This document shows positions 19,301-25,300 of a stretch of 64,000 nucleotides of DNA, in pieces. The translations under genes were made by a program, and so were the position numbers. Under the pieces are notes generated by a model that saw nothing but the letters and a program-made list of their open reading frames with translations, was not told the DNA's origin and searched no databases. Position 1 is the stretch's first letter. Every line of letters starts with the position of its first letter. The stretch comes from Owenia fusiformis (Eukaryota > Annelida > Polychaeta > Sabellida > Oweniidae), in NCBI GenBank assembly GCA_903813345.2, contig CAIIXF020000005.1, positions 20,213,375 through 20,277,374 of the forward strand, written 5' to 3'.

Positions 19301-22300
19301 TTCTCACATACATGTTCATATCATAATAGATTAATGAAGATAATTAATGCTTATACAGATGATCACCATGTTAAATTCTTCTTTAATATTTTGAAGTGCG
19401 ACTTGAATCTGTAGGATGCATTCAAATAACCATGGCTATTCTATGCCTACTGACTGCAGCTATCTTGTACCAGCACCATACCTAGATGTTATTAGGGGAT
19501 TCCCTTTCCAAACCCAAATTGCCATCTTGAAAAATTCTCAACGAAAAACGATAATGTCCTCGTTCTGCCGATAAACCAATACTCACGGAGATTCAACAAC
19601 ACAAAAAGAATCCCCGGGAATTTATTGAGGCACATTATTGGTTAAAGCTGGTGCCAATAATTGTCAGCTTTTGAAAAAAATAAGGGCTGTTCCAGGGTTC
19701 TTCACGACCATACTTCAGGGTGGGCGTGGCACATCAAGAAGACTGCAGATCTTCGTGACTCCTTGATTTTAAATTTTTACTGCGATATTTGAATTTGAGC
19801 TAGTCAGAAATAATTGAAACAGTATAGGCCTAGGAGGGACAATTGTTTTTACAACAAGAGCCTGCTCCAGCTATATTCAAAAAGTACCCCAAAAATTAAT
19901 TGTGTTCCATTTTTCGTACTTGGGTATAAAGTACTCAAAATTACTAAGGCCTAGCACCATCACTGAATTGTACAAAACATTCTAAAATAAAAATTGGCAA
20001 GAACTCCCAGAAGCTATTGGCGTGGACCCAAAATAAATAAATGAGCAAATTAAATAAGCAATTACAGCTATATTGCAATTTGAAAGGTAATATGTGGGTT
20101 CAGATAACTTGAACAGAATGTGAAATTGACATGCATCATCACTACAACAATTAGAAAAAATTCTAAACAAGACACACAGTGATAAATATCGCACTTTGAA
20201 GAGCAAACTGGCCACCATGCAATTTACCCAGCATGGCCAAAACCTAATCAGACCTTGGCACTAGTCTGCTCTTGCATCTGTAAACATTTCAAGTTGACAA
20301 GGTTAGCAGTTTTCCTGCAATTTTGATGACAAGAATTTATTTGTAGTCTTGAACTTTGGGAAAATTTAGATAACATTGTTTGTGACCTAATTTGATGACC
20401 TTCGACCTTGAAAATTTCACTTTTTCAGACCTCAGTAGGTCTTTTGTAATTAGCTGACCTAAATTTAAATCCAAAATATCAATTTAGAAAATCAAATTTT
20501 TGACCTTTTCAAGGCCAATGAAGGTCAACGAAAGGTCAAATCTGAAATCTAAGGTCAGATTTGAACTTCTGAGAACTTGTAGATGTTTTTTAAAAAAAAA
20601 ATTGGTCAATTTGGAGCAAGTTGAAAAATTCAAAATGGCCGCCAAATTGAAAAATTCAAAATGGCCACCGTGTAATTCAGCCAGCATACCCAAAACCTAA
20701 TCAGATCTTGGCAATAGTCTGTTCTTGCATCTGTAAAAATTTCAAGTTAAACGGATAAGTGGTTTTCCTGGAATTTTGATGACAAGATTTGTTGAAAAAT
20801 TCAAAATGGCCACCACGTAGTTTACCCAGCATGCCCTTAACCTAATCAGATCTTGGCACTAGTCTGCTATTGCATGTGTAAAAATTTCAAGTTGAACAGG
20901 TTAGCGGTTTTCTTGGAATTTTGATGACAAGAATTGATTTGTAGTCTCAAACTTTGAGAAACTTGGATAACATCATTTGTGACCTAGTTTAATGACCTTG
21001 ACTTTCGACCTTGAAAATTTCACTTTTTCAGACCTCAGTAGGTGTTTTGTAATTAAGCTGACCTAAATATAAATCCAAAATATCAATTTAGAAAATCAAC
21101 TTTTTTGACCTTTTCAAGGTCACTAAGGGTGAATGAAAGGTCAAATCTGAAATCTAAGGTCAGATTTGAACTTCTGAGAACTTGTAGATGTTTTTAAAAA
21201 AAAAATTTGGTCAATTTGGAGCAAGTTGAAAAATTCAAAATGGCCGCCAAATTCAAAAATTCAAAATGGCCACCATGTAATTCAGCCAGCATACCCAAAA
21301 CCTAATCAGATCTTGGCAATAGTCTGCTCTTGCATCTGTAAAAATTTCAAGTTGAACGGATAAGTGGTTTTCCTGGAATTTTGATGACAAGATTTGTTGA
21401 AAAATTCAAAATGGCCGCCACATAGTTTACCCAGCATGCCCTTAACCTATTAAGATCTTGGTACTAGTCTGCTCTTGCATCTGTAAAAATTTCAAGTTGA
21501 ACAGGTAAGCAGTTATCCTGGAAATTTGATGACAAGATTTGGTTTATGTCCTGCCCGCCCGCACGCCCGCCCAACAGCACAAGACGACGACAATATAGCA
21601 CTTTTTCAAAGTGCGATAAAAACAGTTGAACTTCATGTGCTCATAATATAACCTTATGATCTGTTGTCAATCAAAAAGCTTTACTATATGTTCAACAGGG
21701 ATTTCATGGCAAAATGCAGAACAATTGAAATTAATAAGCAAAAATTATAAGAAATTATATTTTTAATATTGAAACAGTTGCAAATTTCCTCAACAAGGAA
21801 ACTATTTTGGTTAAAACAAGCAGATAAAAAACATCTCTTATCCTTGCTTATGAAAGCCCTGTTCAAGCAACATACCCCATGTCCCTTAATTAAATGTTGC
21901 GATCTACTCTACCTTTAGGCCTCTAAGCAATTCATATATAAGAAACTTGACATGGTCATCACTAAGCTTCTGGGTTTTGATTATGTTGTTAAGGTCTGTT
22001 GCCATTAAAGTAGTGACCAGGTAGCTAGAATACAGAGGATACATGCAGAAATGGAACAGAAGGAGGATTAAACAAGATACAGGGTGACCCACATAAAGTA
22101 CCATGATGGCAGTCATATTTACCAGGCAGCTACAATGTAAAGACTGACAGAACTAATGTACACTAAATTACAAATGATTCCTTACACCATATTTTCCTTT
22201 TTTATTCTAAACTTTAAGCAATTTTTGGCATTAAAATCACAAACTTTTTGATTTCCATTTTACAGACTTCAGTATATGGTAGTTCAGAAAACATTCCAGT

Positions 22301-25300
22301 CATGTTAGGTATTGATTGAATCTTAATGGTCAGTCTCTCATTTCATACCTGGGAAAATGACAACCAAAAAGCCATGCAGAACTACAGGGTGGTGTAACTA
22401 TATGGTATAACACATATTCAGATACAGGGTGACCCAGTTTAACAGTAACTCTTTCTGAACATTTCTGAGAGTCAAATTAATTGCAAAAATGATCTGAGTC
22501 AAACATCTTCTCCCATATGCAGCATAAACCATAACTATACCCATGGTCCTTGTGGGAAGCTCATTTCACATGTATACGAGTATACACATGTATTACATAC
22601 CATGGTAAACACATAGAATGTTAATACTAAATTTATGCAACACATGTCACACATACACATTTGCCAATATTGTTACATATTAATTTGGGTATCAGACATT
22701 AATCCAAAAATATCCAAAGTCACCAACACAGCTGTCAGTTCAACTGCAGTATAGGTTCAGATCATTAAGTACATATCATTGACAGACATTTTTTGTTGTT
22801 CAGTGTAATAGTTTACTAATAAATATCTTTGCAAAAAAGCAATTATCTAAATTTTAGAGAGTTAATATTTACAGTTGAACAATAAAATGTGCTAATATGC
22901 ATGAGCAATTTCAAATGAGAATGTTAGAAAGATATCTTGATCTAGGCCACCCTGTATATTATACAAAATGCTGCAACATTCCTACCTTTAACCCTCTTAA
23001 TATTTGATAGGTTAAGAATTGTACATGGTCGTCGCTAAGTTTCTGGGTTCTAACAATATTGTTGAGATCTGCTCCCATTAAATGTGTGGTAAGATAACTA
23101 AAACATAACCAAACCAAATACATGCACAAGGAGTCGCAATACAATTCCTAATATTTGCTTATTCCTGTTTCTACACTTTCACATTGAGGTTTTCCACTTG
23201 CATTGGAGTACCCATAAGGAACCCAAGTTAGGTTTCTGTTCATAATGTTGCAGAGTAAACCAAACTTTACCTTTGGGGCTATTTCATAGAAAATGCGTTT
23301 ATTAACAACCCCAAGGGCACCATAGTCAGAAAACTTCACTCACTGCATTCAAGTTTGCCTCCAAAGACAAATCCTGCATGTTTTGTAAAATGGCCATAAA
23401 ATAGTGACCATTTGCAATAGACCAATGAAACATGGCTGAATGTAAGAACATTGAACAAGGTATCATTTTGCCAATATGACTTCAAACCAATATTGCATGA
23501 CTGTCCTGAGTTTTTAAGATTTGTTTGGGTTACTCTTTTGGCTCACACTGTAGTTCAGGTGAAATAATTGTTTAGATAGTTAAAATGTGTAAAACTGTCC
23601 ATATACATGTTATTGGAACATTATTCATGTTACCATATATAGAGGTTATGTCACGATGATGTGAAATATGCCTGAGTTCTCCCAATATAGGCCGACCTTG
23701 GGAGGCTCTATATTTGGGCAAGAATGAATGATCTCACTATGTTTTTTTCTCAACAGGATGAAAAGATCCAAATTTTAGCTATAAATGTCAAAATATCTCA
23801 ATACTTCTTCATTTTGACAGGGTACAAACTGATTTTCAACAGAGCGGCGTATGAGTTTTGAATTTTCAACCAGGGTGATATACCCAGAATATGATGCTCA
23901 AATGCTGAGGTGATTACTGCTTCATATATGACTCCTAACTTCAGTATTCAATGTTCACATATCCACAGTCATTCTTTCCTACAATTGTTGGTTATCATGC
24001 TTTAAGAGTGTTTTTAAATTCAGCTTTCAAACCAAATACCAATTATTCTAAAAGCCAACCATGCATCAAGCCATTATAAATTCATCCATTTCAGGGGTCT
24101 TCCCAAACTCTCCAATCAGATACCTTGAGACCCCTAAGAATCTGGTAAACAAGAAATTGAACGTGATCATTGCTTAGTTTCTGTGTCCTCACTATTGTGT
24201 TCAGGTCTGCTCCAAGAAGATGTGTTACCATGTAACTGTCAAATGAATAGTATAATATACACAAAATACAGGGTGTTCAATAAATAAACACATCCCACTG
24301 AACAAAACATGTTTTGATAAATAATGGTCATCTTGAAAAATGGACAAACAAATGGACAAATGAACGGACAAACCAATGGACTGCTTCTCTATATCCCTAC
24401 ACAAACTCCATTCGGTGGGATCATAAATAACACAATAGTAGTACTAATGCACAATTATAGGGTGTTAAACATAGAATAGATCTGTTATTATATTATTTAT
24501 TTGAAGTATTATAATGTTTTGCAAAAGAATGAGTCTTCTAAGATCAAATATTGACTATTTACGTCTAACAAAGAGAATATATTTGTCAGAACTAGATGAA
24601 TGAAAAGTATCTGTCGTCCAAATTTAACTATATTGAATGACTTTCATTACATATTCCTTAACCTGCACATCCCTTTAAAACTCAATCTTTGGTTGGGTTG
24701 TTCGGAGGTTGCCTACTTGCCAGGGTAATGAATGAGGTTCGAATGCCCTGACGAATTTTTTATTTTTCTAACTACTTGTACTTACATTAAATGGTTGTGC
24801 TTTGATATTAGTGTACGCACATAAAACAGTTTGTAACCACGTCAACTTTATATTTGAGCATTAATAATCTTGTTGGTTGTATGAACTGTAAAAATAATAT
24901 TCCATATTCTCTGTAATTAGAGCCCAGGTCACTTAGAGAATTGAAAATACATCCTTCAGACCATTCTAATAAGCGCCCATATGTACTATAAGAAGTCAAA
25001 AATTCCCGGTAATTTCATGTATGGCAATTTTTCTTGCCAAAAATGCCTTATTAGCAATATCAAATCATATTTTTACAATAATATTGTATCGTAATTAGAG
25101 AGATTACAGTAAAGATCCCTAAAATAAAACAAGGATCTTGCAAGAATCTACTACACAATATTGACATTGATTGAGGAAATCCACAGCAGAGCCCCTTGAA
25201 TTGAAGGCATTGTTTTTCCAGATTATCTTCAATATTTCCACTAGAGACTGTTGGATAACCTATCTAAAGATAGACCTTATCATTTTAAATTGATGACAGA

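Follow-up and report, generated by a model that had tools for sequence, protein, structure and literature searches.

The minus strand of the window (the whole 64-kb stretch of Owenia fusiformis DNA that was analyzed) carries a complete 12-exon p38 gene of the MAPK14 type (Table 1). All introns of the exon model have GT..AG borders, and the spliced model equals the public 365-residue Owenia protein P0001, by direct comparison for residues 1–344 and by tblastn for residues 345–365. The identification as p38 made by the first-pass annotation was confirmed: the spliced reading carries the TGY activation motif and the catalytic motifs AIKK, HRDLKPSN and DFG, it matches the Pkinase domain with 224.7 bits, and the 60 best solved relatives listed for it are without exception p38-alpha/MAPK14 entries. 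The sole Owenia p38 protein among the matches listed is the 4b+8b combination, a one-member cluster. A duplicated exon 9 was not found in the 64-kb window by tblastn, with tick exon 9 variants among the queries, and no Rfam family reached its gathering score in the window.

Table 1. Exons of the Owenia p38 gene and associated elements (positions in the window)
Feature	Positions	Strand	Remarks
Exon 1	34448..34569	-	coding part, with ATG
Exon 2	28770..28899	-	
Exon 3	25876..25934	-	
Exon 4a	24124..24235	-	hinge copy 1, 112 bp
Exon 4b	22986..23097	-	hinge copy 2, 112 bp; copy present in P0001
Exon 4c	21913..22024	-	hinge copy 3, 112 bp; most divergent (T107, A110, T111, K128, E133, L134)
Intron segment directly 3' of 4b	22926..22965	-	candidate docking site for RNA pairing, weak
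Exon 5	19105..19134	-	
Exon 6	18512..18559	-	
Exon 7	16593..16707	-	TGY activation motif
Exon 8a	15550..15621	-	72 bp; N across junction; U12-like donor GTATCCTA
Exon 8b	14790..14861	-	72 bp; H across junction; U12-like donor GTATCCTT; copy present in P0001
U12 branch-point sequence	13580..13588	-	TTCCTTAAC; branch A 11 nt upstream of exon 9
Exon 9	13491..13570	-	single copy within window
Exon 10	13162..13252	-	
Exon 11	12774..12947	-	
Exon 12	10304..10368	-	last coding exon, to stop codon

Exon 4, which corresponds to human p38-alpha residues 103–139, is present in three copies, each consisting of one base that finishes a Val codon and 37 codons open in a common frame. The coordinates, the length of 112 bp, the shared phases, the AG/GT flanks and the lack of stops described in the first-pass annotation were all reproduced, as were the splice partners (exon 3 ending at 25876, exon 5 starting at 19134) and the peptide identities between the copies (31/37 for 4a–4b, 24/37 for 4a–4c and 27/37 for 4b–4c). 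With the peptides of 4a and 4c, extended by short ends of exons 3 and 5, as queries, tblastn found the three copies at E-values between 7.2e-15 and 4.6e-22, compared to 0.15 for the next-best match within the 64 kb, so the three-copy arrangement is not due to chance. A fourth copy was searched for by tblastn and none was found in the window. An assembly artefact, in which collapsed haplotypes or misjoined paralogues mimic multiple copies, is barely credible: with 73–77 of 112 bases in common the copies are too divergent for haplotypes, no p38 exon other than 4 and 8 is repeated in the 64-kb window (tblastn), and two distinct sets of ordered, phase-matched copies would not be expected from misjoins. 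When exon 4 is skipped, or when any of the three pairs or all three copies are joined, a premature stop follows after 110, 152 or 156 codons; the earlier proposal of one copy at a time thus holds as the only frame-keeping reading, since skipping and all four multi-copy combinations run into a stop.

Selection at the protein level was judged from pairwise counts between the copies. For the three exon 4 pairs, the differences at codon positions 1/2/3 are 9/3/27, 11/4/23 and 10/5/19 (each position of 37); synonymous sites are saturated and dN is 0.18, 0.24 and 0.19 for the three pairs. In simulated neutral drift with 1 change per site, 0 of 20 000 copies stayed stop-free with at least 24/37 identity, and this was so for each of the three starting copies. 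Judged by these counts, the exon 4 copies are old and maintained as protein, and the selection on codons implies that all three are translated now or were until recently. A recent duplication or haplotype copies were rejected because of the saturated synonymous divergence. In a tree of 23 exon-4 peptides (20 from other animals and the 3 Owenia copies) the Owenia copies do not group, with branches that are near zero and hardly resolved and that date nothing. The early stop in every multi-copy combination, together with the 4b+8b protein as the one Owenia p38 protein found among the matches listed, would also fit a gene in which only 4b (with 8b) yields protein and 4a and 4c serve as decay switches, a second copy shifting the frame and destroying the mRNA. 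We regard this as improbable: a decay-only exon needs no codon upkeep, yet 4a and 4c retain the p38 frame and most residues at saturated synonymous sites, and each possesses its own acceptor and donor.

A second set of copies, overlooked in the first-pass annotation, is formed by exons 8a and 8b. Both have equal length and phase and encode the segment from VDIWSVGC to LFPG; their synonymous divergence is saturated and dN is 0.24. Both donors are U12-type. Pairing of the 8a and 8b donors with U1 yields −0.7 and −0.8 kcal/mol, respectively, compared to −5.0 to −9.7 kcal/mol for the other 12 donors, and the U12 donor consensus is matched at 7/8 positions in 8a and 8/8 in 8b against at most 5/8 in the other donors. 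The U12 branch point consensus is matched at 9/9 positions upstream of exon 9 and at no more than 7/9 for other exons (exons 2 and 3). The acceptor of 8b is U2-type, and a U12-type donor should not be joined to it, so joint use of 8a and 8b is not expected; with 72 bp, the reading frame itself survives both skipping and double inclusion. The exon 4 cluster has ordinary U2-type splice sites; U12 splicing was considered for it as well and rejected, as its donors fit the U12 consensus at just 4–5 of 8 positions.

The explanation we favor, with a probability of roughly 80%, is that of two clusters of tandem-duplicated exons in one p38 gene, the copies within each cluster being mutually exclusive; up to 3 × 2 = 6 isoforms could then be produced. 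Directly readable from the DNA are the copies, their frames and splice sites and, by the counts given above, purifying selection on the protein: the three copies of exon 4, like the two of exon 8, lie next to each other, are homologous and agree in length and phase, and in each cluster the sequence provides a barrier to joint inclusion, namely a frame shift to a stop in exon 4 and a U12-type donor facing a U2-type acceptor in exon 8. One of 4a, 4b and 4c would be joined between exons 3 and 5, setting the ATP-pocket hinge and the first part of the helical lobe beneath it, and one of 8a and 8b would be joined between exons 7 and 9, setting the VDIWSVGC–LFPG segment. The exon 4 copy may be picked by splicing factors, perhaps also by intron pairing, and wrong combinations would be frame-shifted and then cleared by nonsense-mediated decay, while 8a and 8b would be kept apart by the mismatch of their splice site types. 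Counted against this explanation were the 4b+8b protein as the only one among the matches listed, the frame-neutral length of exon 8, the departure of 4c from invariant residues and the ungrouped exon-4 tree.

The hinge is a main target of kinase drugs, and it is nearly fixed across the p38 proteins compared. That exon 4 covers the ATP-pocket hinge, as had been claimed, was borne out. The three copies vary at 6 of the 8 hinge positions (104–111) and at 8 of the other 29 positions (post hoc Fisher test, p = 0.03), and all three have the gatekeeper Thr106. For comparison we used 240 p38-like proteins, a set in which p38-gamma/delta is hardly represented; 4c-like and 4a-like hinges were searched for by region, with at most 120 matches listed for each of the three database searches (of 7980, 395 and 424). 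Outside Owenia, the best identities in this set are 35/37 for 4b, 34/37 for 4a and 30/37 for 4c, all of the ordinary p38 type; the protein database was clustered at 90%, which may hide exon-4-only isoforms of other species and makes absence there weak evidence. In exon 4c, A110 and E133 stand at positions that are G and Q in 240/240 of the proteins, and T111 stands at a position occupied by A in 234 of them and by S in 6. These departures could mark 4c (or 4a) as a once-used copy that is now dropping out of use. We think this unlikely, as 4c is free of stops and frameshifts, has lost neither of its splice sites and retains the gatekeeper and the docking contacts, and several of its residues are found elsewhere: T107 and L134 in human p38-beta, K128 in two p38 proteins from lemurs (one named MAPK11) and T111 in part of a fish protein, a part which we take to be p38-gamma/delta-like. 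At position 110, p38-delta has Gln.

The predicted difference in partner docking found no support in the form in which it was proposed. Within residues 110–130 the copies vary at 110, 111, 115, 117, 118, 124 and 128 only, and I116, Q120, L122, H126 and L130, named as docking contacts in the text excerpts of PMC12751014, are the same in 4a, 4b, 4c and 240/240 p38-like proteins. The idea of a docking switch is weakened because these five groove contacts never differ among the copies; an effect of the variable residues on the rim of the groove is possible. Kinases carrying 4a, 4b or 4c are predicted to differ chiefly in the nucleotide and inhibitor pocket. In 4c, Ala110 replaces the flip-competent Gly110 and should weaken the binding of Gly-flip inhibitors.

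The exclusive exon pair of JNK spans the same kinase segment as exon 8 and also consists of 72-bp exons. As in Owenia, the first copy of vertebrate JNK has a U12-type donor, the second a U2-type acceptor and the next exon a U12 acceptor. Excerpts of PMC3584512 describe this hybrid U12/U2 arrangement for vertebrate JNK genes, with exons used one at a time. The Owenia gene differs in being a p38 and in adding a three-copy exon 4 cluster with U2-type sites. Within the p38 family, vertebrate MAPK14 alternates exons 9a and 9b. Among 9 chosen same-species p38 pairs, 7 differ at exon 9, including several arthropod pairs, and none at exon 4 or 8, in agreement with the earlier claim that the hinge exon is not the later one alternating in vertebrate MAPK14. 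These pairs resemble Owenia in gene family and in the alternative use of duplicated kinase-domain exons; in Owenia, however, the window contains just one exon 9, and the choice lies at exons 4 (hinge) and 8. The vertebrate paralogues MAPK11, MAPK12 and MAPK13 gain variety from separate genes, whereas Owenia has duplicated exons, and 4c has T107 and L134 in common with p38-beta, while its A110 occurs in 0/240 of the p38-like proteins, few of them p38-gamma/delta. Frame-breaking lengths and spliceosome incompatibility, described as barriers for human mutually exclusive exons in excerpts of Hatje et al., correspond to the frame shift of exon 4 and the U12/U2 mismatch of exon 8. MAPK is absent from the main text of that paper (0 occurrences of 'mapk'). 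Among the papers listed for p38/kinase exon alternatives or for Owenia, with two of the lists limited to 10 of 7174 and 10 of 14 entries and subscription journals mostly outside, none was recognizable as treating a p38 hinge-exon choice.

A more far-reaching interpretation, which we put forward as speculative and rather doubtful, is that one worm gene yields six p38 kinases, its two exon choices being made independently of each other. ATP affinity and the response to inhibitors would be set by the hinge copy in use, 4c providing residues reached in vertebrates through the p38-beta and gamma/delta genes, and the exon 8 choice would be tied, via the minor-spliceosome intron, to p38's own activity. 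The latter link is drawn because p38 stabilizes U6atac in human cells, according to excerpts of PMC3728624. A hinge swapped by splicing would offer natural hinge-variant experiments in an otherwise identical kinase, and the three isoforms would isolate the effect of the hinge on nucleotide affinity, rate and inhibitor response. A single gene would then cover part of the work of four vertebrate p38 genes, and U12/U2-enforced exon choice would extend to p38 besides JNK.

With regard to intron pairing as a possible selector of exon 4, the segment at 22926–22965 is complementary to 22075–22114 (upstream of 4c) and 24266–24305 (upstream of 4a). It contains CACCCTGTAT, which also ends a mariner element at 31.4–33.4 kb, and because of this common terminus the pairing is kept merely as a lead. 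Over 3619 pairs of segments close to the exons, the strongest pairing was that of the region downstream of 4b with the region upstream of 4c at −32.7 kcal/mol, compared to −23.4 to −28.7 kcal/mol for the best pairing in each of 8 shuffles. The 20th-best real pairing (−21.0) falls inside the shuffle range of −19.9 to −21.7, and the fifth-best (−26.5) lies beyond that of −22.2 to −25.7.

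The window contains a complete p38 MAP kinase gene with 12 coding exons and GT..AG borders at every intron. Splicing with 4b, one of three tandem copies of exon 4 (the ATP-pocket hinge), and 8b, one of two tandem copies of exon 8, yields by direct comparison residues 1–344 of P0001, a protein from Owenia fusiformis listed as 'unnamed protein product', and tblastn located its last 21 residues in the window with a 100% match; the window therefore belongs to that annelid. By sequence, the nearest solved structures are p38-alpha/MAPK14 entries. The first-pass annotation, which described the three hinge exons, is incomplete because it overlooked the duplicated exon 8.

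Features of the p38 gene and its surroundings in the window
Feature	Position	Strand	Description
p38 MAP kinase gene	34569 to 10304	(-)	
Exons 4a, 4b, 4c		(-)	112 bp each; 1 base completing a Val codon, then 37 codons
Exon 8a	15550-15621	(-)	72 bp
Exon 8b	14790-14861	(-)	72 bp
Mariner-type element	~31.4-33.4 kb		Mos1-type HTH and partial transposase domains
Repeats	20204-21569		spacings of ~145, 455 and 605 bp
Retrotransposon pieces	3-2542	(-)	matches to Ty3-type gag, aspartyl protease and reverse transcriptase
NTP_transferase matches	41772-43440	(+)	two stretches, exons of a nucleotidyl transferase gene

The exon 4 codons correspond to residues 103–139 of human p38-alpha. All numbers given earlier for the hinge exons that we checked proved correct: the length of 112 bp and amino-acid identities of 31/37 (4a-4b), 24/37 (4a-4c) and 27/37 (4b-4c). 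In the same order, 73, 73 and 77 of 112 nucleotides are identical, and Nei-Gojobori counts gave synonymous differences at 25.5/25.5, 20.5/26.1 and 19.5/24.9 sites and nonsynonymous differences at 13.5/85.5, 17.5/84.9 and 14.5/86.1 sites. The duplication is old and the protein is under strong selection. We simulated 20,000 neutrally changing copies and counted those that had no stop and still matched in 24/37 residues or more: with 1.0 change per site 0 of 20,000 remained for each of the three starting copies, with 0.5 change 2–5 of 20,000 and with 0.3 change 3–5%. Use of one copy at a time, as had been proposed, is correct to the extent that sequence can tell, as skipping exon 4 or joining 4a+4b, 4b+4c, 4a+4c or all three would lead to a stop within 156 codons.

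The two copies of exon 8 share the same residue in 18 of 23 full codons and differ at 12.25/16.3 synonymous (saturated) and 10.75/52.7 nonsynonymous sites. Their donors (GTATCCTA for 8a and GTATCCTT for 8b) pair only weakly with U1 (-0.7 and -0.8 kcal/mol, respectively), compared to -5.0 to -9.7 kcal/mol for the 12 other p38 donors. Scored with the U12 consensus strings, TTCCTTAAC upstream of exon 9 matches the U12 branch point at 9/9 positions and places the branch A 11 nt upstream of this exon; no other acceptor exceeds 7/9 (the score of exons 2 and 3), and 8a and 8b have 5/9 each; in the 64 kb TTCCTTAAC occurs once on the gene's strand and once on the opposite strand. We know of no description of a duplicated exon upstream of the p38 U12 intron. 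The U12 intron itself is not new in p38, since a preprint gives human MAPK14 as U12-regulated (PMC12637451). The same U12/U2 hybrid arrangement has been described in vertebrate JNK genes, with the two forms used one at a time (PMC3584512).

With copies, frames, splice sites, selection and U12 signals all observed in the gene, we infer that it most likely works by a regulated choice that takes a single copy of exon 4 and a single copy of exon 8, which would give up to six kinases. The exclusion rules would differ between the clusters, because joint use of 8a and 8b would require splicing a U12 donor to a U2-type acceptor: exon 8, with a length divisible by three, would rely on spliceosome type, whereas exon 4, with ordinary splice sites, would rely on frame and regulation. 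Splicing factors probably select among 4a–c. Base pairing between the intron segment that follows 4b and those that precede 4c or 4a is a possible selector but a lead only, because just its very top values stand out from 8 shuffles and the segments share a motif with the mariner end. Feedback of p38 through U6atac on the Owenia gene is conceivable, since in human cells p38 is reported to increase U6atac and the splicing of minor introns (PMC3728624). The U6atac level would more readily set the amount of p38 mRNA than the 8a/8b choice, as both copies have U12-type donors joined to one acceptor.

The three hinge copies differ at 14 of 37 positions, including 6 of the 8 residues 104–111 (Fisher p = 0.03 for a region picked post hoc). 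For comparison we took the 294 other proteins among the listed matches of similarity searches with Owenia p38 and retained 240 in which exon 4 aligned throughout and identity to P0001 was 60% or higher; 53 fell below 60% and one (P0002) had no alignment across exon 4. In these 240, which by this choice hardly include vertebrate p38-gamma/delta (p38-delta has Gln at position 110) and define 'invariant' for this set only, we observed G at position 110 (240), A (234) or S (6) at 111, Q (238) or K (2) at 128, Q at 133 (240), V (239) or A (1) at 105 and M (238) or L (2) at 109. Copy 4c carries A110, T111, K128 and E133, 4b carries T105, and 4a carries L109 and T115. Single features of 4c recur elsewhere: T107 and L134 in human p38-beta, K128 in two p38 proteins from lemurs (one named MAPK11) and T111 in one part of a fish protein, a part which we take to be p38-gamma/delta-like. 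The gatekeeper Thr106 is present in all three copies. At this position 12 of the 240 proteins have Asn, 11 Met and one Ser; those with Asn include tick (Amblyomma, Ornithodoros) and Mytilus proteins (P0048, P0055, P0057, P0092, P0020, P0026, P0080 and five more). The suggestion that the isoforms differ in docking was too strong: I116, Q120, L122, H126 and L130, described as p38 docking contacts (PMC12751014), are the same in every copy and in 240/240 proteins. With these contacts unchanged, the variation lies in the pocket and in the helix that backs it. Met109-Gly110 flips for many inhibitors (PMC6331920, PMC3694096), a flip reported not to track with selectivity (PMC3694096).

Vertebrate MAPK14 has an alternative pair at exon 9. 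We compared nine same-species p38 pairs, hand-picked from the database matches, exon by exon: seven differ in exon 9 (11–19 of 27 residues), one of them also in exon 12, and two are identical in their aligned parts. None of the nine differs in exon 4 or exon 8, in a database clustered at 90% identity, where exon-4-only variants may be hidden. The seven pairs come from insects, tick and spider (P0232/P0244, P0234/P0245, P0285/P0293, P0058/P0114, P0288/P0289, P0048/P0055 and P0033/P0037), which indicates a vertebrate-like exon 9 choice in these animals as well, whereas in the Owenia window exon 9 occurs only once and the two clusters involve other exons.

Among the neighboring features, CACCCTGTAT lies at the ends of the mariner-type element and also upstream of 4a and 4c and, inverted, downstream of 4b. 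The repeats make up a large part of the intron that separates 4c from exon 5, and retrotransposon pieces were found as well. The nucleotidyl transferase gene, presumably encoding mannose-1-phosphate guanylyltransferase, and the p38 gene are arranged head to head.
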